This document shows positions 3,331 to 14,032 of a stretch of 34,848 nt of DNA, one piece after another (the first letter of the stretch is position 1; the number at the start of each line of letters is the position of its first letter). The notes beneath the pieces are model-generated. The model saw nothing but the letters and a program-made list of their open reading frames with translations. It was not told the DNA's origin and did not search any database. The position numbers and the translations under genes were made by a program. Location of the stretch: the NCBI GenBank assembly GCA_002728675.1, contig PBVL01000173.1, forward strand, positions 1 to 34,848, read 5' to 3'. Source of the DNA: Gammaproteobacteria bacterium (GTDB lineage Bacteria; Pseudomonadota; Gammaproteobacteria; Pseudomonadales; Azotimanducaceae).

Positions 3331-3350
3331 AGCCCGCGACGATGCGGGCT
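3331..3350. terminator. Hairpin between convergent genes
   Basis: AGCCCGC-GACGAT-GCGGGCT forms a perfect 7-bp stem with a six-base loop, exactly between the zinc-ribbon gene stop (3327, plus strand) and the stop of the minus-strand LLM gene (3350-3352). It lacks a clear T-run on either side. It may work as a weak bidirectional terminator or as a 3'-end stabilising hairpin. Confidence 0.5.
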
Positions 3351-4270
3351 CAGCGCCCCTCGAACGCGGGCAACACGTGATCGATGAAGAGGCGGGTCTG
3401 TTCGGTCATCTCCGACGCATTGCGCGCGATGGGCATGCACACGAATTTACTGCAACCGCCGGCAATGTACTCTTCAGCACGCGCGATCACCGCGTCCGCG
3501 TCCCCTGTCACCATGAATCGCGAGGGGTCCTTGCCGGTGCGGGCCTTCAGGCCGTCGGCGGTCTGTTTCGACGCGGAATCCTCACCGCTACCGATGCGGA
3601 ACGAGAACGTCGCGCCGTAGTGGTCTTCGTCAATTGAACGCCCGGTGTCTACCAGAGCGGCCTTGATACCGCGCACCATGACCGCCGCTTGTTCCGGCGT
3701 GTCGATGCCGCCCAGCCAGCCGGTGCCGTATCTGGCGGTCCGCTTAATCGCCACTTCGGAGGAGCCTCCGATCCAGAGGGGAATGTCCGGGTTCACGGGT
3801 CTGGGGGCAATGCTTGCCTCATCGTATTTGAAGAAGGTGCCGTCGAACGACACCGACTCTTCACTCCAGAGCCGCGAGACCAGTTCCAGCGCCTCGTTCG
3901 CCTTCCTGCCGCGTGCCTTGGTCGGTGTACCTGTCGCCGTATAGTCGCGGGAAACGGCACTGCCGATGCCAAACGCGGGCAGCAAACGGCCTTCCGAGAG
4001 TACGTCGATCGTCGCAAGCTGCTTTGCAGTCAGCAGCGGATCCCGCAGCGCAATCGACGCGACATTCATGCCGAAGCGCATGCGGTCGGTGGCTCCCGCG
4101 AGCGCGGCCATCGTGGCGATGCATTCCAGCATCGGCTCCGTGGAGACGAGCCGGTCCGTCTGCCAGATCGAGTCGACGTGACCCTTCTCACACTGCTCGA
4201 CCCACGCCCAATACTCACGCGCGGCGTCAAACGGATATCGGGAAGTCCCGAGGCCCAGACCAATCGTCAT
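3350..4270 (-). CDS. LLM-class flavin-dependent oxidoreductase (third of three)
   Basis: A 306-residue luciferase-like monooxygenase family protein. The N-terminus has a short strand G-L-G-L-G-T-S, then D-S-I-W-Q-T-D-R, matching the family's A-D-x-x-W-x-x-D pattern. R-D-P-L-L-T-A-K-Q-L-A-T-I-D lies near residue 80, followed by G-R-L-L-P-A-F-G-I-G. The I-P-L-W-I-G-G-S-S-E motif, typical of F420-dependent members, lies near residue 165. The ATG at 4270 is the first good start; the upstream ribosome-binding site is weak (GGTGA). It is 32 bases downstream of the MMPL exporter gene on the same strand and is probably cotranscribed with it. It is oriented toward, and not obviously derived from, the two LLM genes at 944-2955. 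Substrate and cofactor choice unknown. Confidence 0.9.
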   Translation of the reverse strand: MTIGLGLGTSRYPFDAAREYWAWVEQCEKGHVDSIWQTDRLVSTEPMLECIATMAALAGATDRMRFGMNVASIALRDPLLTAKQLATIDVLSEGRLLPAFGIGSAVSRDYTATGTPTKARGRKANEALELVSRLWSEESVSFDGTFFKYDEASIAPRPVNPDIPLWIGGSSEVAIKRTARYGTGWLGGIDTPEQAAVMVRGIKAALVDTGRSIDEDHYGATFSFRIGSGEDSASKQTADGLKARTGKDPSRFMVTGDADAVIARAEEYIAGGCSKFVCMPIARNASEMTEQTRLFIDHVLPAFEGR

Positions 4271-4302: not shown

Positions 4303-6635
4303 CTAGTCGGGTGCTTTGCGGGTGTCACCGCCGTCGAGCAGCATCAGGAGCGGCGGCAACAGGAAGAAGTCCAGGACCACCGCGACGAGAATCGTGATTG
4401 CGGAAAGCGTCCCGAGTTGCTGGTTCGGCGAGAAGGATGAGCTTGCGAGTACAGCAAAGCCGGCCGCCAGGATGATTGTCGTCGATGAGAGCGCAGTCCC
4501 AACGTGTTCGAAGGTGTGCCGGATCGAATCTTCCGCCGACAGCGCCAGTTCGCGTCGGGCGCGACGATAAGTCGAAAGGAAATGCACCGTATCGTCGACG
4601 ATCAGGCCCATCGTGATCGACGTGATGACCGAGGCAATCATGCCAATCTCGCCAACGAGCATTGCCCAGATGCCGAGCGTAACCGCAGCGGGGAACAGGT
4701 TCGGCACGAGACTGAGAACACCGAGCTTCAGATTCCGCAGGGCCACCATCAGTACCAACGCGATCAGGCCAAACGCGAGCAGGGTACCCAGCAGCATGTT
4801 GCGGATCATGCGCTGCGACAGATAGGCGAACATGATCGAACTGCTGGCACCCTGGGTCCACATCGCCTCCGGCGCATGCTCGCGCAGCCATGCTTCAGCC
4901 TTGACCTTGATCCCTCGAATATCGCGTGAATGGATGTCATGCAGGGTCATTACGACCTTGGTCGCGGATTTGTCGGCGTCGATCTGGCTGTTCAGATCCA
5001 GCCCGTAAGGCAACGACATCTCGAACAGCAGCAGAAACTGCGCGGCGAGCGGGCGCGTGTCGGGGATGCGATACCAGTCGGGATCGTCACCGTGCATCGC
5101 GCGATTGAGGCGCTTCTGTACGTCGGAGAAGATGTAGACGTGCGCAACCTCCGACTGCTCGAGGCTCCAGGCGCGGAACGCGTCCAGTGTCGCCAGGTAG
5201 GCGGGCTCGGAAATGGAGCCCTCACCACCTCCTGACAGGGAGAATTCGAGCGTATAGGGGCCAGTCAGATGCTCGGTGGTGAAGTCGGTGTCGGCTCTCA
5301 GCGGCAAATCGTCGGGAAAATACTCGAGGAACGACTCACCGAGATCGTTGGTCGGCACGAGCGCGATCAGCATGATGGCCACGCCGCCGATGCCGACCAG
5401 AAACACCCGCGATCGGCCAATGACAACCTCGGCAAGCTGACACAGCAGGCGGCGTGCAACACCGCGTCGTCGCCCTTCGGCAAACGGGAGAATGAACCAG
5501 AGTGCCGGCAGCAGCGTCAGCGACAGCAGCCATGCCGCAAAAATACCGAATCCCGCCATGTTGCCCATGTCGGCCATCGGCGGAGAGCCGGAGGTGTTGA
5601 GTGACGTGAAGCCAATGATCGTCGTCAGACTGGTGACCGCGACCGGCTCGAACTTCTCCTTCAGCCCCTGCCGGATCGCCTGATCCTTGTCGAGGCCGTC
5701 CTCCATGTGCTGAAGGGCGGCGACAAAGATGTGCACCGAGTTGGCGAGCGCGAGCGTCAGCACCATCAGCGGTGCCATCGACGACGGTGACGTGAAGACG
5801 ATGCCAATCGCGGAACCGAGCCCGGCTGACGACATTGCCGCAAGGGACAGCAGCAGCACCGTCACCATCGTGGCGGGCACCGAGCGGAGCAGCACCGCCG
5901 TGAGCAGCACGATGAGCCCCAGCATCACCGGCATCAGCAGGGCCATGTCCTCCTCCATCGTGACGAGCATGGCGTGGTCGAACAGAACAAGCCCCGTGCG
6001 GGCAACGACGAGATCCGGGTACTTCGCCCCGAGTTCATCTTCGAGTGCCTGACTGAATTCAACGACTTCGGGTACAAACTCGTGTTTCGGGCCGGGCGGG
6101 AAGTGAATCGTCACCATGACGGCCGCGGTCTTGCCATCCGGGGAAATGAGGCGGTGGACGAGCGAGGGCTCCGCAATCGCAACCGCCAGACGGGCTTCGC
6201 GTTCGGCGGGGGACAGATCGGCAAACTCGACCAGGTCCGCGACGATCAGGTCGTCCTCTTGCGCAATCGTATGCTGGAAGTTGGTGACCGAGTCGACCCT
6301 CAGCGCGTGCGGCGTCAGCCAGGCCTGTTCGGTCGCGTCCAGCAACGCCCGCAGGGCATACCCTTCGAACATGGTGCCGGACGGACTGCGCAGGGCCAGC
6401 AGGTAGTAGTCGGCATTCGTATAGGTCGTCTCGAGCGCGTCGAGCGCAATCAGTTCCGGGTTGTCGTCATCGAAGAAGATCCGGTAGTCGGTCGTGATGA
6501 CCATCCGATCGAGCGTGGACGCAAGATACAGCGGACCGGCAAGCGCCAGCAGGACGACCGCGAAGCGCCAACGCTGTACGACATCGAGATACCGGTCGAG
6601 GATCGAGGCCTCCGGTCAGATGTTGGTCGCGCCAC
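4303..6635 (-). pseudogene. MMPL/RND-superfamily exporter, start obscured by an apparent one-base indel
   Basis: A large inner-membrane transporter of the RND superfamily (MMPL type), which usually moves lipids or hydrophobic compounds. It shows the two-fold repeat: a first membrane segment, a large periplasmic domain, and a cluster of five to six helices (around MPVMLGLIVLLTAVLL), then a second periplasmic domain and a second helix cluster containing G-L-I-V-D-D-T-V-H-F, a hallmark of the family. The first ATG in the open frame, at 6504, lies after the first membrane helix, so it is not the true start. Upstream codons encode EASILDRYLDVVQRWRFAVV in the same frame but have no ATG/GTG/TTG before the TGA at 6618. 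A GTG at 6635 in another frame gives M-A-R-P-T-S-D-R, and adding one G near 6612 joins it to E-A-S-I-L-D-R (about 777 residues). This would overlap the SDR gene by 20 bases. Confidence 0.82.
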
Positions 6636-7410
6636 CGTCGAGCGGCAGCACCACCCCGGAAAGATAGGAGCCGGCGCGCGATGACAGGAAGATGGTCAGC
6701 CCGGCCGCGTCCTCCACCGCCCCCCATCGCTTCATCGGAAAGCCGGCACGTACCTGCTCTTCCAGTTCCGGCGTCGCATAGAGCGGCGCGGTCATTTTCG
6801 ACTGGAACGGCCCAGGCGCGATGCAGTTGACGTTGATCTGCTCGTCCATCAGATCCCGCGCAAGTTGCGCTGTCAGTTGATTGAGGCCAGCTTTGGCCGC
6901 CACGTAGGAGTAGTTCCGGAGGCCTGACGGCTTCAGACCGTTCACGGACGAGACGTTGACGATCGAAGCGCGCTGCTCGGGTCTCGCCGCGGCACGGAGC
7001 AGTGGTAGCACTTTCTGGATGAGGAAGAACGGACCTTTGATATCGAGGTCCATGACCTTGTCCCAGGCCTTCTCCGAGAACTTGTCGATGTCCTCGCTCC
7101 AGGTGAGACCGGCGTTGTTAACGAGAATGTCGAGGCGCGACTCCCGGCCGGCAATCTCATCCGCGAGCTCCTGGCAGCCCGCAATCGTCGAGACGTCGCT
7201 CGGAATCGCGACACATTCACCAAACTCCGAGAGTGTCGATTCCGCCTCCTGGCAAGCTTCCGGTTTGCGCGACGCGACGTAAACCCGGGCGCCGCAGCGC
7301 ACCAGTCCTTCGGCGATCATGAGGCCGATCCCGCGCGTACCGCCCGTTACGAGGGCAACCTTCCCCCGAACCCCAAACAGATGTTCGTAGTAATCCGTTG
7401 CCAAAGTCAT
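6616..7410 (-). CDS. Short-chain dehydrogenase/reductase (SDR)
   Basis: A 264-residue classical SDR, an NAD(P)-dependent oxidoreductase acting on alcohols or ketones. The Rossmann glycine motif T-G-G-T-R-G-I-G lies at residues 22-29, N-N-A-G at 98-101, the catalytic Ser at 154/155 in V-N-V-S-S-V, and the catalytic Y169-x3-K173. The chain ends with the usual D-G-G near the C-terminus. An Arg soon after the second strand (A-S-R-K-P) suggests NADP(H) preference, an inference from family rules. The ATG at 7410 follows AGGAA. The gene lies 65 bases downstream of an acyl-CoA dehydrogenase-like gene and upstream of the MMPL exporter, fitting a catabolic operon for an acyl or alicyclic compound. The exact substrate cannot be told. 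Confidence 0.92.
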   Translation of the reverse strand: MTLATDYYEHLFGVRGKVALVTGGTRGIGLMIAEGLVRCGARVYVASRKPEACQEAESTLSEFGECVAIPSDVSTIAGCQELADEIAGRESRLDILVNNAGLTWSEDIDKFSEKAWDKVMDLDIKGPFFLIQKVLPLLRAAARPEQRASIVNVSSVNGLKPSGLRNYSYVAAKAGLNQLTAQLARDLMDEQINVNCIAPGPFQSKMTAPLYATPELEEQVRAGFPMKRWGAVEDAAGLTIFLSSRAGSYLSGVVLPLDGGATNI

Positions 7411-9851: not shown

Positions 9852-10373
9852 TCACTGCGCCATCAGAAACCTGATGCCCTGCTCGTAGGCGTCCTGCGCC
9901 CGTTCCCTGATCTCGTCGAGTGAACGGGAGCCGATCGGGTGTTCAACCGAGGCGAACTGATAGTCGGGCACCCCCAGCACCTTGGCGATGTTCTTCGCCG
10001 TCGGTTCGAACGGGGTGGTGCAGATGACCAGCGCGGGTTTACCGAGCTGCTCGAACATTACGCCGTCGTGCAAACTGCACGTTGAACAGCTTCCTCAGTC
10101 CCCGACGGTCGTGATGAGGAACTCGCAGACCTCGGAGAGCTTCTGCAGATGCTCCGCCGGTGCGGGTCTGCCCGCATTGCGCTTGTCGATCAATTCGACA
10201 ACCTCACAGCCGTGCCGCTCGGCAAAAATGGCCGCAGTCTCCTGCGCCAACGTGTCGGCGTTCGCTTTGCCGTTGATCAGGATCCCGATCTTGCGACCTT
10301 CGAGGTAGGTCAACCGGGGCGCCTGGATTCTGGCGGAGCGGTTTGTGCCGCCCGCCGGGTTCACCAGTTCCAT
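9852..10373 (-). CDS. UGSC-family selenoprotein (TGA at codon 93 read as selenocysteine)
   Basis: A 173-residue protein of the UGSC (seleno)protein family; enzymatic role unknown, presumably redox. ATG 10373 follows GGGAG. The frame is open to TGA at 10097-10095 and continues without interruption to TGA at 9854-9852. Around the internal TGA the translation is F-L-I-T-T-V-G-D-Sec-G-S-C-S-T-C, where the family has either Sec or Cys in U/C-G-S-C. The chain then continues with L-H-D-G-V-M-F-E-Q-L-G-K-P. Upstream, G-R-K-I-G-I-L-I-N-G-K-A-N-A-D is a typical first strand and helix. Sec93, Cys96 and Cys99 form a potential redox centre. A hairpin begins 13 bases after the TGA. Calling this a pseudogene or two genes is unlikely, since the codon falls exactly on the family's Sec position. 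It lies 22 bases behind its partner gene. Sec use requires selABCD elsewhere in the genome, not visible here. Confidence 0.88.
10067..10081 (-). promoter_or_regulatory. SECIS-like hairpin downstream of the selenocysteine TGA
   Basis: On the minus strand CGTGCA-GTT-TGCACG forms a perfect 6-bp stem with a three-base loop (or 5 bp with a five-base loop), starting 13 bases after the in-frame TGA at 10097-10095. Bacterial SECIS elements, bound by SelB, lie at this distance. The E. coli fdhF apical stem-loop (UGCA-GGUC-UGCA) is similar, with G and U in the loop. Established knowledge sets position and loop preference; SelB binding here is inferred. Confidence 0.65.
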
Positions 10374-10395: not shown

Positions 10396-11463
10396 TCATG
10401 TTCGCACCTCTGCATGCTGCATGATCGAAGCCCGCGTCCGGCTCCACGAGGTGATGAAGGCCGAATGGCCACCGGCAAGTCCACCGGCAACGGTCAGCAT
10501 GATGTCGTCCGGCGCGAGCCCGCGGTGCACGAACGACTCACCTTCCGGTCCGGTGTGGCCCGCGTTTAGCTGGGCTTCGTGTTCGCGCGGCACATACTTG
10601 CCGCACGCCTGCATGGCCGCAACGGGCTGACGCGCATGCATGAAGAGGTACTCGCGGGTATCGGCCTTGCTCCAGCCGGACCCGGCGACAATCTTTGCGT
10701 GTTCGGGTGAGAGCACCACCATCGACTGGCCAATCGTGATGCACCCGAGGTTTGCCATCGAGTCGGCAATACAATCGAGGATCGTTTCCGGGTTTGCGCC
10801 GCCGTGGTTCTCGACGTTGTTGAAGCTCGAACCCGCGTAGGTCACGACACAGCTCGCACCCTCTCCGTAACCGAGTTCAACCGGCAGAGGGTCCCAGGGG
10901 TTCACGTCAGCACGCTCGGCGAAACAGAAACTGTACTTGCCAGGGAAACCCTGGGTCGACTGATCCGACACGCCAGGAATCATTTCGAAGACGTTCATCA
11001 GGATCAGCCGGATGGCGCGACCGAGGGTTGCGTTGGCACGCGTGCCCGGCGCAAACGTCCCTGCACCGGAGTTCATGCCGATCGCCTCGACAACCGGTCC
11101 CGCGACCAGCAACACAGGAGTCGAGCCGCCGGTTGAAGCACTTGCCGCGTGGAAGTTGTAGTCGGGTTTGTCGAGAGCCTCCAGCGCAGCCACCAGGACC
11201 GGAAAGTACTCCGGCAGGCACCCGGCCATCACCGCATTGACCGCGGCGGCGAGCGCGGTACACGTATTGCCGGTCGTTGGGTGGGTATTCAGAACGTCCT
11301 CGGGCGCGTGCCCGGTGCCCGCCAACATCGCTTCGACCCTGGCACGTTCCGGAGGGACAACCGGCAGGCCGTCCGCCGCCCAGCCGATCTCATAACAGTG
11401 ATCAATCGCCGCGAGGACGTCACCATCAAACGTGGTGACAGCGCTGTTCGGCACCGTACTCAA
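10396..11463 (-). CDS. Conserved protein of unknown function, operon partner of the UGSC selenoprotein
   Basis: A 355-residue soluble protein with no signal peptide or membrane span. Start is TTG at 11463 with AGGGAG at 11475-11470, well placed; no ATG competes. Visible features are D-G-L-P-V-V-P-P at residues 31-38, N-A-V-M-A-G-C-L-P-E-Y-F-P-V-L at 76-90, and a Gly-rich A-S-A-S-T-G-G-S-T-P-V-L-L-V-A-G-P segment at 107-123. There are several cysteines (C68, C82, C180, C205, C231, C241, C287). I recall similar proteins lying next to UGSC-family genes, but no characterised function, and I do not assign one. Being 22 bases upstream of the selenoprotein it very likely forms an operon and perhaps a complex or two-enzyme pathway with it. 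The cysteines may exchange electrons with the Sec centre; this is inference. Confidence 0.8.
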   Translation of the reverse strand: MSTVPNSAVTTFDGDVLAAIDHCYEIGWAADGLPVVPPERARVEAMLAGTGHAPEDVLNTHPTTGNTCTALAAAVNAVMAGCLPEYFPVLVAALEALDKPDYNFHAASASTGGSTPVLLVAGPVVEAIGMNSGAGTFAPGTRANATLGRAIRLILMNVFEMIPGVSDQSTQGFPGKYSFCFAERADVNPWDPLPVELGYGEGASCVVTYAGSSFNNVENHGGANPETILDCIADSMANLGCITIGQSMVVLSPEHAKIVAGSGWSKADTREYLFMHARQPVAAMQACGKYVPREHEAQLNAGHTGPEGESFVHRGLAPDDIMLTVAGGLAGGHSAFITSWSRTRASIMQHAEVRT

Positions 11464-11579: not shown

Positions 11580-12614
11580 TCAGCGGTAGGCTTCGATCAG
11601 TTCGGCCCGGTCTTCCGCGGCCGGATGGGTTGCGAGATAACGCTGCAGCTTGCCCACGCTTCGTGATACACCCGAGTCTAGGCCGTCACCTTCGTCACCT
11701 TCACCGGTGTAGTGCCCTTCGAGACGCCGCATGATCCGTGCAAAGTGCTCCAGATCCTGACCTGCCGCCACCATGGACTCGAGCGCGTAGACGTCAGCCT
11801 CCCGTTCGAAGTCGCGCGAATAGGCCAGATCGACCAGCACCGCCGGCAGTCCGATCAATAGGTCGAACGAGCTCACGTCACCGGTGATGAGGAACACCAC
11901 AACCGCCACTCCGGAACTCTGGATGACCCTGCGGAGCAGATGCCTGTGATGCAGGTGTCCAACTTCGTGGTAGGCAACCGCAAGCAACTCCCCGTCGTGC
12001 TCCGCAAGTTCCACAATACCGTCGGTAAAGACGATCGATGCGTCCGGCAGCGCAAATGCGTTGGGCGGTCCCTTGCGGAAGTGAAGTTCGGCACCCGGAT
12101 GCAGCGCGAGCGCCGGCGCGACCAGATCGCGCACCCGCCGCTTCTCGAGCCCGGACAGTTCCGAGTCATCGAACATCACCGTATCGAGCACGTCCAGACT
12201 TCCGCCCGAGATGTCCTCCACGATCGCTCCCGGCAGCGACATCGCGATGCGCTCGGCCGCTCTCGGAATGCCGTCCAGCACGACCCAGACACTGAACCCG
12301 AGCGTGAACAGCGTTGCAACGACGATCAGGCCGAGGTGCCGTTCGAGCAGATCCAGCGCCAGCCCGGGTGATTCCGGGCCAAGCAGCTCGTCAACGCCGT
12401 CGTTGTCTTCGGTCGTGAAGAGGCTGCCGCTGGGGAAGGTGAACGTACGCGGCACCCGGCCCAGGCGCGACGACACCACCACATCATCAATCTCCGCGAC
12501 GTCGACTTCTGCGTCGTCATAGTCGCAGACGACCAGATCGTCACCTTCCGCGGTCAGATAGGCGGCGAATGTCCGTGAGGTGCGCCCGTCATTGAACTCG
12601 CCCTCTACGATCAC
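11580..12614 (-). CDS. Membrane-anchored M48-family zinc metallopeptidase
   Basis: A 344-residue protein with an N-terminal soluble beta-rich domain (1-90), one membrane helix (about 94-113), and an M48 peptidase domain. The zinc site is H-E-V-G-H at 216-220, with third ligand E270 in E-R-E-A-D; the intervening hydrophobic stretch (232-265) may dip into the membrane. The family includes HtpX and Ste24-like proteases that handle membrane or envelope proteins. The GTG start at 12614 overlaps the stop of the upstream YjgN-like gene as GTGA, which decides the start and indicates translational coupling. YjgN-like proteins and M48 peptidases with such N-terminal domains often occur together, as I recall. 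Substrate unknown. Confidence 0.88.
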   Translation of the reverse strand: MIVEGEFNDGRTSRTFAAYLTAEGDDLVVCDYDDAEVDVAEIDDVVVSSRLGRVPRTFTFPSGSLFTTEDNDGVDELLGPESPGLALDLLERHLGLIVVATLFTLGFSVWVVLDGIPRAAERIAMSLPGAIVEDISGGSLDVLDTVMFDDSELSGLEKRRVRDLVAPALALHPGAELHFRKGPPNAFALPDASIVFTDGIVELAEHDGELLAVAYHEVGHLHHRHLLRRVIQSSGVAVVVFLITGDVSSFDLLIGLPAVLVDLAYSRDFEREADVYALESMVAAGQDLEHFARIMRRLEGHYTGEGDEGDGLDSGVSRSVGKLQRYLATHPAAEDRAELIEAYR

Positions 12615-13651
12615 GCAAGCGATCCGATATCGAAGTCGAAGACTTCACCAAACTCCTCGCCCAGTGCGCTGACGGCCTCGCGCTCCGCCCGGACGAAGTC
12701 GTCGATGGAACCGACCGCGATGAACGTCATGTGGTCCGCGACATAGTGTGTCAGCCGGACCTTGGCTGCGGGCAGATAGAGCCCGAGCGTCACGATCGTC
12801 AGGAAGAACACGGTGGCGCAGGTCATGAAGTACCCGGGAAACTCCAGTTCGGCGTCGAGTTCATGCCGATCGAGACTGGAACTGTTGTAGTAGAGGTTGA
12901 TCATCATCATCCGGATGAGAACGATGGTCACACCGTAGCCGATCACTGGAATGATCAGCAGGACAGGATTCGGCTCACCCTGATCGGCCCCCGCTCCAAG
13001 TACGGCCAGCAGTGCTCCCGTGAGACCAAATCCGAGGATTGCGAAGAGGAAAATCTTGCCGTAGTCGAGGTACCCCGCATCGAAGGCAAACGATGTCGTC
13101 CCGTAGCTGCTGTTGTCGACGATGTACTCATTCATCCTGAGCACCGCATAGGGATACAGCAGGCCGAACGACAACATGCCAAGCAACGGCCAGACGTACA
13201 GCACCATGAACGCATCGCCGTATCCACCGTGGAATCGGAACTGAACATTGCGCCAGGCGCTCATCCGCGCGTTGAAGGCCAGCGAGCGCATCACCAGAAA
13301 CGGGATCGCGAAGAACAACAGGAAGGCAATGATCATCCCGACCGTGGGCGCGAAGTTGAGTGTCACCGAGTACAGGAGGAACACACCGACAGCGATCAGA
13401 CGCCCAATGAGGATCTGCATTGGCTGCGCCAGATACTGGAACGGCGAGCCCGCAAAGTACAGGTTCGAGTAGAAATAGCGCTTGGTGCGCACCTTGGCCC
13501 AGGCCGAGTAGACTCCGAGCGTCAGGATCGTCAACAGCAGATTGACGATCCAGATCTTGAAGAACTCGAACCCGTCGCCGCGAAATTCGAACGGATAGTT
13601 CGTGATGTCAGATGGCGGCAGATGGTCACCGGGTTCAGGCGAGTCGGTCAT
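12611..13651 (-). CDS. yjgN: YjgN family (DUF898) inner-membrane protein
   Basis: A 346-residue multi-pass membrane protein. The DUF898 signature is clear twice: F-E-F-R-G-D-G-F-E-F-F-K-I-W, then N-L-L-L-T-I-L-T-L-G-V-Y-S-A-W-A-K-V-R-T near residues 25-60, and a related T-I-V-T-L-G-L-Y-L-P-A-A-K-V-R close to the C-terminus, showing an internal repeat. About six or seven membrane helices lie between. ATG 13651 has AGGAG seven bases upstream; a longer open frame begins further up but has Arg/Cys-rich, non-membrane content and no ribosome-binding site, so it is rejected. The stop overlaps the M48 protease start. The function of YjgN is unknown; the pairing suggests an envelope quality-control or transport role. 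Confidence 0.88.
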   Translation of the reverse strand: MTDSPEPGDHLPPSDITNYPFEFRGDGFEFFKIWIVNLLLTILTLGVYSAWAKVRTKRYFYSNLYFAGSPFQYLAQPMQILIGRLIAVGVFLLYSVTLNFAPTVGMIIAFLLFFAIPFLVMRSLAFNARMSAWRNVQFRFHGGYGDAFMVLYVWPLLGMLSFGLLYPYAVLRMNEYIVDNSSYGTTSFAFDAGYLDYGKIFLFAILGFGLTGALLAVLGAGADQGEPNPVLLIIPVIGYGVTIVLIRMMMINLYYNSSSLDRHELDAELEFPGYFMTCATVFFLTIVTLGLYLPAAKVRLTHYVADHMTFIAVGSIDDFVRAEREAVSALGEEFGEVFDFDIGSLA

Positions 13652-14032
13652 GAGCAGGCTCCTCTGGCGATAGGTAGTGCCGCGGGCGGGCGAAACCCTC
13701 ACCTGATCGACCGACTCTGAGCCACCGGAACGATTGCCCCGCGACCGCACGCGGGAATTGCAGGCGCATGTACGCGCGGCCCGCCGAGCCCGTCTGCACG
13801 GTGGACACGGGTTCCACCCTCGTTGCCCATTGAACCACAAAGCGGTAGCCGGGCCGGACCCCTCGCGGAATCCCCGCAAAAAAATGGCGAGCCGTAGCGG
13901 CAGTTTGGGGACTGCCTGGCTCGCCTAGTCTTGGCTGGAAGGTGGGCGCCCCGCCCTGGGGACAGGCGGAACGCCGAAACTGAACTGACCGACGGCTCTA
14001 TGCCCCGGAACCGTCAGTCACCGAACGCCGGA
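13652..14032. other. 381-base intergenic stretch
   Basis: It lies between the YjgN start and the stop of the secreted-protein gene, both on the minus strand. It holds the intrinsic terminator at 13878-13925 and, nearer 13652-13870, the presumed YjgN promoter, of which no convincing -35/-10 pair is visible. I see no gene in it. Confidence 0.6.
13878..13925 (-). terminator. Intrinsic terminator of the small secreted-protein gene
   Basis: Read on the minus strand, an outer 8-bp stem (GGCGAGCC with GGCTCGCC) encloses an inner 6-bp stem (GGCAGT with ACTGCC) and a six-base loop, followed after CA by seven T. This is a textbook Rho-independent terminator, 108 bases past the stop at 14033, and it closes that transcript before the YjgN operon. 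Confidence 0.85.

Follow-up and report, generated by a model that had tools for sequence, protein, structure and literature searches.

The usual pairing of a UGSC-family selenoprotein gene with the same neighbour gene suggests a selenium-dependent enzyme

We analysed a stretch of 34,848 nucleotides (the window), which is contig C162 of a draft genome (G000; 91.45% complete, 7.57% contamination). Its minus strand carries a gene that is a new member of an already published family of selenoproteins, UGSC. We found that UGSC genes are usually paired with the same neighbour gene, here called the partner, which suggests that the two products form a selenium-dependent enzyme. To what was known of the family we add this partner gene, covariation in the SECIS-type RNA stem behind the selenocysteine (Sec) codon, a predicted fold and a kinship with PrdB-like proteins. 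The features discussed are collected in Table 1.

Table 1. Positions of the features discussed, in the window unless a locus or contig is named
Feature	Position	Strand	Remarks
UGSC-family selenoprotein gene	9852..10373	(-)	173 aa with Sec93; start ATG at 10373; stop TGA 9852-9854
TGA read as selenocysteine (Sec93)	10095..10097	(-)	TGA here in 84 aligned genes including the window's
Bacterial SECIS-type stem-loop	10067..10081	(-)	six pairs and three-base loop G-T-T in the window; starts 13 bases after the TGA
Partner gene	10396..11463	(-)	355 aa; upstream of UGSC, same strand; 22 bases from its stop codon to the UGSC start
SDR	6616-7410	(-)	downstream of UGSC, same strand
Luciferase-type oxidoreductase	3350-4270	(-)	downstream of UGSC, same strand
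PrdB-like gene, G000 contig C11	L126:2793-3746		UxxC
PrdB-like gene, G000 contig C97	L125:1312-2106		UxxD
PrdB-like gene, G000 contig C106	L123:683-1822		UxxC
PrdB-like gene, G000 contig C181	L124:817-1923		UxxC
Thioredoxin-partner fusion	L029:9437-10999		CPTC
Thioredoxin-partner fusion	L030:9160-10746		CPTC
Thioredoxin-partner fusion	L037:4785-6227		CETC
Thioredoxin-partner fusion	L120:2368-4797		CPTC

The in-frame TGA and its reading as selenocysteine

Read on the minus strand, the gene translates as MELV...ITTVGD-TGA-GSCSTCSLHD...FLMAQ, with a single internal TGA. An earlier note on this DNA had proposed a UGSC-family frame that continues across this TGA as V-G-D-Sec-G-S-C-S-T-C and looks family-like on both sides, and our translation agrees with it. 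The PF24696 (UGSC) profile covers residues 3-170 of the readthrough protein (E 6.6e-47, 160.3 bits against a cut-off of 25), whereas the NF041046 match only just passes (126.5 bits against 125). Because both profiles score above their cut-offs and U-G-S-C occupies residues 93-96 in register with the aligned family, the assignment to UGSC, with Sec at the position that names the family, holds. The protein is identical to its relative from locus L043 at 48 of 91 residues before the TGA and at 55 of 77 after it; both halves are thus conserved, and they are so in all seven relatives compared.

The same note called the selenoprotein hidden and expected gene callers to split it. The second point was seen on the Paracoccus ferrooxidans plasmid pFER4 (L145:4423-6080, L149), whose annotation breaks a Sec-form UGSC gene into two 'hypothetical proteins' flanking the TGA; the partner lies behind this gene, and selB follows on the plasmid 3.3 kb past the partner. 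P. versutus strains carry the Sec form as well. 'Hidden' is nevertheless too strong a word, as the family has a curated NCBI model (NF041046) and was in print by 2008 as the UGSC-containing protein of the GOS survey (PMC2398784).

Our UGSC sample comprises 90 matches in 89 regions (80 loci recruited with the partner, 8 further genome regions and the window). A TGA is present in 85 of the 90, in 84 of these at the Sec site; locus L038 was left out of the Sec-site set because its TGA sits elsewhere. A bacterial SECIS element is a stem-loop directly after the UGA with a G in its apical loop. The UGSC gene has both the stem-loop behind its TGA and the apical-loop G, and the first loop position is G in 79 of the 84 Sec-form genes. 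To examine the stem we used a gapless alignment of 36 bases from the TGA onward in these 84 genes, and counted pairs in a seven-pair stem with a three-base loop (columns 16-22 with 26-32) against 500 shuffles. In the window positions 10081-10076 pair with 10072-10067; the seventh, outermost pair is not formed there and forms in 39 of 76 distinct rows. Paired cells made up 89.5% of 532, compared with 80.6% in the shuffles, and 31 cells were changed on both sides, compared with 7.8. None of the 500 shuffles reached the covariation score, which dropped from 0.248 to at most 0.086 when the partner column was slid by 1-3. Two of the five stem measures were no better than the shuffles: the number of pairs with changes on both sides (3, reached by 167 of 500) and of further pair types (8, reached by 149 of 500). 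The stem is visible only in the alignment, as single-sequence RNA folding behind the window's TGA was not significant (z -0.89). RNAalifold, applied to this alignment, gave a weak consensus of four pairs (-0.56 kcal/mol). The synonymous codon for Val101 tracks the pairing: it is GTG in 27 of 27 sequences in which stem column 21 is C and GTC in 9 of 9 in which it is G, with one further sequence combining A and GTG. Selection thus works on the RNA and not on the protein alone.

Sec machinery is present in the same bin. The genes selA (558.7 bits) and selB (417.3 bits) are neighbours on contig C250, and there is a tRNA-Sec (70.7 bits; ARAGORN anticodon tca). The earlier note had proposed a look for selD as well; it was not found in the 91.45% complete bin, where the best match was ThiL (48.9 bits against a cut-off of 125). 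This absence says little, because an AIRS-domain search of the bin returned ThiL as its only gene and so missed purM as well, a gene present in nearly every bacterium, and because only 253 bases of contig C250 lie upstream of the selA match. With neither selD nor purM turning up, the bin seems to be without genes that it should have. The same genome holds five UGSC genes with one TGA in each, and four PF07355 (PrdB-like) genes whose Sec site is also an in-frame TGA, giving the motif UxxC in three and UxxD in the fourth. G139, a complete genome, carries two UGSC genes in the Sec form and has selA (561 bits), selD (431.9 bits) and tRNA-Sec (71.2 bits). In G143 and G277, where UGSC has Cys at this site, no selA scores above the cut-off, and the best RF01852 matches are tRNA-Ser by ARAGORN; G277 does carry selD (294.4 bits), and its UGSC gene is frame-shifted.

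Together these data bear on the simplest alternative, that the TGA is a true stop, as it is in translation table 11, and that the gene is broken or yields two pieces. The missing selD would fit such a stop. Against it stand the same-site TGA in aligned genes of many phyla with a covarying stem behind it, the conserved downstream half, and the presence of selA, selB and tRNA-Sec, and we regard a true stop as extremely improbable. Chance or a sequencing error is excluded in practice by the 84 Sec-site TGAs and the covarying RNA. A genome devoid of Sec machinery, which the earlier note had named as fatal to its reading, is not what the bin shows. Sequence, SECIS covariation and machinery thus make it almost certain that this TGA is read as Sec and that the gene encodes a real UGSC-family selenoprotein.

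In an alignment of 55 UGSC proteins neither Sec/Cys93 nor Gly94 varies, and at residue 96 there are 51 proteins with Cys and 4 with Ser; Lys36, Lys64, Ser95, Asp103, Phe122, His145 and Pro146 are nearly invariant. Of the 84 Sec-form genes, 81 encode Cys and 3 encode Ser at residue 96, whereas residue 99, whose codon falls within the SECIS stem, is divided among Cys (46), Trp (22), Gly (9), Ser (5) and Ala (2). A redox centre of Sec93, Cys96 and Cys99 had been suggested. Cys99 is correct for the window's sequence but is no feature of the family, and because it is not conserved the proposed centre shrinks to Sec93 and Cys96. Some relatives cannot perform Sec/Cys redox chemistry, given the Ser96 of three Sec-form genes and the Met at the Sec site of two fused proteins (see below).

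The partner gene and its surroundings

Neither Pfam nor NCBIfam holds a family that the partner matches above cut-off, and all 59 aligned partner members are without a match in either collection at E up to 0.01. Invariant residues of the partner include D31, C82, T111, R149 and E183. A sub-threshold Pfam row for SsdA_C in the window's partner (14.3 bits against 27, over 18 residues) was taken as chance in a search at E up to 10. When we searched 299 genomes of the phylum for UGSC, we found nine loci in 4 genomes (the window's genome 5, G139 2, G143 1 and G277 1), and a partner lay beside UGSC at all nine, each being either the window's own or a homologue 33-40% identical in the best segment. 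We also ran the search in reverse, probing GTDB genomes with the partner alignment alone. UGSC was found within the fetched stretch at 75 of the best 80 of at least 584 confirmed partner stretches; being the best of this number, these loci measure the pairing on nearer relatives. They span proteobacteria, Chloroflexi, Acidobacteria, Binatia, Rokubacteria, mycobacteria, Bacillus, Natrialba and others. The remaining five (L094, L099, L101, L103 and L104) had no UGSC in a search at E up to 1; on one side of the partner match the available DNA ends within 30 bases at L099 and L103 and within 185 bases at L094, but not so at L101 and L104.

Over the 89 regions, 89 of 90 UGSC matches share the strand of the nearest partner and the gap is at most 400 bases in 85; the partner comes first in 61 matches and UGSC in 28. 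The sole UGSC gene on the strand opposite its nearest partner (L046:7125-7637) may reflect an inversion or an assembly fault.

At the protein level the partner matched 24 plasmid records, in which any annotated feature under the match is a 'hypothetical protein'. In 14 plasmid stretches examined, five name a UGSC neighbour and another five, including two that have no gene tables, contain it without naming it; a motif scan covering part of the stretch revealed no UGSC on the Haladaptatus and Neorhizobium plasmids. On two plasmids, Sporomusa termitida pSPTER (L139:7281-9005) and Vibrio europaeus pVEu (L136:7344-9029), UGSC and the partner form a single chain, which by eye has Met at the Sec site in both. 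Genes for aconitase X and DUF126 lie near both fusions. The frequent pairing and the two single-chain fusions support the view that the partner, the usual companion of UGSC, is the second subunit of a putative two-subunit enzyme, and they speak for a physical complex.

Thioredoxin is linked to the pair at a minority of loci. In 4 of 89 regions the partner carries, on its N-terminal side, a fused thioredoxin-like CxxC domain, for which a profile was built from three of the four cases. Close to the pair there is a trxB-like gene in two regions (L036 and L037) and a thioredoxin gene in one (L075). Of 12 examined plasmid stretches with gene tables three have trxB, once with trxA: in Arthrobacter both genes immediately precede the pair, in Roseovarius sp. 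THAF8 trxB is directly downstream and in Variovorax it is upstream. UGSC is in the Cys form at four of the five trxB loci and in the Sec form in three of the four thioredoxin-partner fusions. In glycine reductase, NADPH supplies electrons that thioredoxin reductase and then thioredoxin pass on to GrdA and GrdB (PMC3091704). In Arthrobacter sp. ERGS1:01 the Cys-form UGSC (L135:9015-9830), which follows trxB, trxA and the partner, has a C-terminal extension that is NifU-like by eye.

Reading representative sequences to assign family names, we found as neighbours over the 89 regions CaiB-type CoA transferases (12), luciferase-type oxidoreductases (11), SDRs (10), acyl-CoA dehydrogenases (9) and TctC-type receptors (9). 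These neighbours point to CoA-linked catabolism of small carboxylic acids, and the UGSC-partner pair has the look of a module slotted into clusters of catabolic genes. UGSC is separated in the window from the downstream SDR and luciferase-type oxidoreductase by an epoxide-hydrolase-like gene on the opposite strand. Immediately upstream of the partner, on its strand, an M48 peptidase with DUF7092 stands beside a DUF898 protein (11580-13879), possibly as a separate operon. A promoter and terminator scan returned nothing above chance.

Predicted fold and kinship with PrdB-like proteins

AlphaFold, given 55 UGSC sequences, returned a model with pLDDT 93.3 and pTM 0.88, in which five strands alternate with five helices (E-H-E-H-E-H-E-H-E-H). 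Sec93 follows the third strand and lies between strand 85-91 and helix 94-108. The thioredoxin fold is defined by its strand order with a C-terminal beta hairpin, and the UGSC model, which is a prediction and not a solved structure, has no such hairpin. UGSC is hence predicted to be a five-stranded alpha/beta protein without the thioredoxin fold. This claim rests on the order of elements, not on match lists, although no thioredoxin was found among the 50 matches listed for UGSC in either Foldseek or VIA-align. The 2008 GOS survey had described the protein as 'likely Trx-like' (PMC2398784).

Both programs listed common alpha/beta folds for UGSC (flavodoxin, receiver domain, lumazine synthase), with a designed protein as the best VIA-align match (Z 10.9), and we drew no functional reading from them. 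The model of the partner reached pLDDT 91.0 and pTM 0.91. Foldseek matched it best to cyclic amide hydrolases and to class I fumarase, a subunit of which gave the top row (E 9.1e-5, TM 0.29), with VIA-align Z of at most 6.4; a TM of 0.29 is too weak to give the partner a function. Sequence searches of solved structures with UGSC, the partner and a PrdB-like protein gave no convincing relative (best E 0.28 to 2.2).

Using hhalign with nine PrdB-like (PF07355) proteins, a set that includes no clostridial PrdB or GrdB, we found that UGSC residues 73-150 align on the region around their Sec, with the two Sec positions in register (score 43.7, pair E 3.9e-6, probability 87%). The maximum score was 20.9 in 150 column shuffles, and a reversed template gave 17.9. 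When the Sec and Cys columns were masked the score was 35.2 and the probability fell from 87% to 58%; with the masked template cut to its catalytic half the score was 34.8, against at most 21.6 in its own 150 shuffles. Global mode gave a probability of 56.5% and a pair E of 1.6e-5. One PrdB-like protein also matches NF041046 over its Sec region (E 0.011). None of 55 UGSC members matches PF07355 (GRDB) at E up to 1, and UGSC is therefore not to be filed in that family. The profile alignment supports a distant relationship of UGSC to the Sec region of PrdB-like proteins, that is, of the D-proline/glycine reductase selenoprotein B family.

The four PrdB-like proteins of the window's genome score above the PF07355 cut-off (23-28.5 bits) and at 89-123 bits against TIGR04483 (PrdB), under its equivalog cut-off of 300. 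Two of them, from contigs C106 and C181, have an additional C-terminal stretch of roughly 190 aa. A PF09338 subunit (GrdE/PrdA-type, pyruvoyl proprotein) was not found in the 91% complete bin (best 10.7 bits, cut-off 22.2), and the chemistry of the Grd and Prd systems can thus not be transferred wholesale.

A putative two-subunit reductase and its alternatives

The earlier note left the redox centre as one of unknown use, which can now be narrowed because the gene is part of a two-gene module. Given the partner, the predicted fold, the PrdB-like kinship and the thioredoxin links together, the likeliest reading is a Sec reductase of two subunits fed by thioredoxin, and by analogy UGSC may work like PrdB/GrdB; we judge this statement as a whole to be probable. 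UGSC would be the Sec-bearing subunit and the partner the second subunit, which would bind a small organic acid or a derivative of one. The selenol of Sec93, at the start of its helix, would attack the bound substrate and bring about reductive bond cleavage, and the resulting Sec93-Cys96 selenenylsulfide would be reset by thioredoxin and thioredoxin reductase. The confinement of the thioredoxin link to a minority of loci, with Cys forms at four of the five trxB loci, speaks against such a reductase, as do the relatives incapable of Sec/Cys redox chemistry.

UGSC could instead be a general, thioredoxin-like thiol/selenol oxidoreductase or peroxidase, to which the partner would contribute only specificity or scaffolding. 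Its UxxC motif is typical of thiol oxidoreductases, and thioredoxin genes or domains do occur at some loci. The predicted order of elements, however, is without the beta hairpin of the thioredoxin fold, and a general peroxidase would need no dedicated partner, nor would it sit in varied catabolic clusters; we find this explanation unlikely. A non-reductive enzyme (an isomerase, lyase or hydrolase) that uses Sec/Cys as a nucleophile or acid-base group would explain why the fused forms with Met at the Sec site retain the rest of the protein. It would also suit the fumarase and cyclic amide hydrolase matches of the partner, the aconitase X and CoA lyases near some loci, and a PrpF gene 6-8 kb away in the window. 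Those fold matches are weak, though, and the retention of Cys96 beside Sec in nearly all Sec-form genes, together with the links to thioredoxin and its reductase, fits redox turnover better, so that a non-reductive role appears quite unlikely to us.

Returning to the thioredoxin-fed reductase, we tentatively put forward a broader version, which we hold possible with less confidence: UGSC and the partner would constitute an unrecognised, widespread two-subunit Sec reductase of the PrdB/GrdB superfamily beyond the Stickland anaerobes, with thioredoxin driving the breakage of a bond in a small carboxylic acid and several versions per genome (five here) serving different substrates. The lineages named for the pair are proteobacteria, SAR202 and other Chloroflexi, actinobacteria and haloarchaea. 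UGSC is among the more abundant selenoprotein families of aquatic metagenomes, with 255 Sec sequences in the GOS survey (PMC2398784), and a 2026 review counts it among selenoproteins whose functions 'remain largely uncharacterized' (PMC13188914). The open-access listings and passages searched contain no description of the partner, the predicted fold, the PrdB kinship or the thioredoxin fusion and neighbourhood. With a constant partner, a fold predicted to differ from that of thioredoxin and a tie to the Sec reductases that serve amino-acid fermentation, a redox protein of unknown role would become an enzyme open to testing. This could also, if the proposal is true, give one reason why many marine and soil bacteria retain the costly Sec machinery.

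Compared with the known UGSC family (PF24696/NF041046), the window's protein has the same profiles, the UGSC motif, Sec at the naming position and a length of about 170 aa, and shows no difference at the family level. The UGSC/Unknown_1 fusion selenoproteins of the GOS survey (PMC2398784) likewise join a UGSC domain to another conserved domain, and Unknown_1 may be a candidate for the partner family. From PrdB/GrdB the UGSC system differs in that UGSC is without a PF07355 match, in that no PF09338 subunit was found in the genome, and in having a different partner. Unlike Stickland fermenters, the hosts of UGSC include lineages generally regarded as aerobes. The system resembles PrdB, GrdB, GrdF and GrdH (PF07355, TIGR04483) in the profile similarity of UGSC to PrdB-like proteins, with Sec on Sec, and in the thioredoxin system at some loci. 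The resemblance extends to the placing of the active residues: PrdB of C. sticklandii has Sec152 of 242 and GrdB Sec350 of 436 (PMC3091704), and in these proteins, as in UGSC with Sec93 of 173, Sec is followed three residues later by Cys and lies 80-90 residues from the C-terminus.
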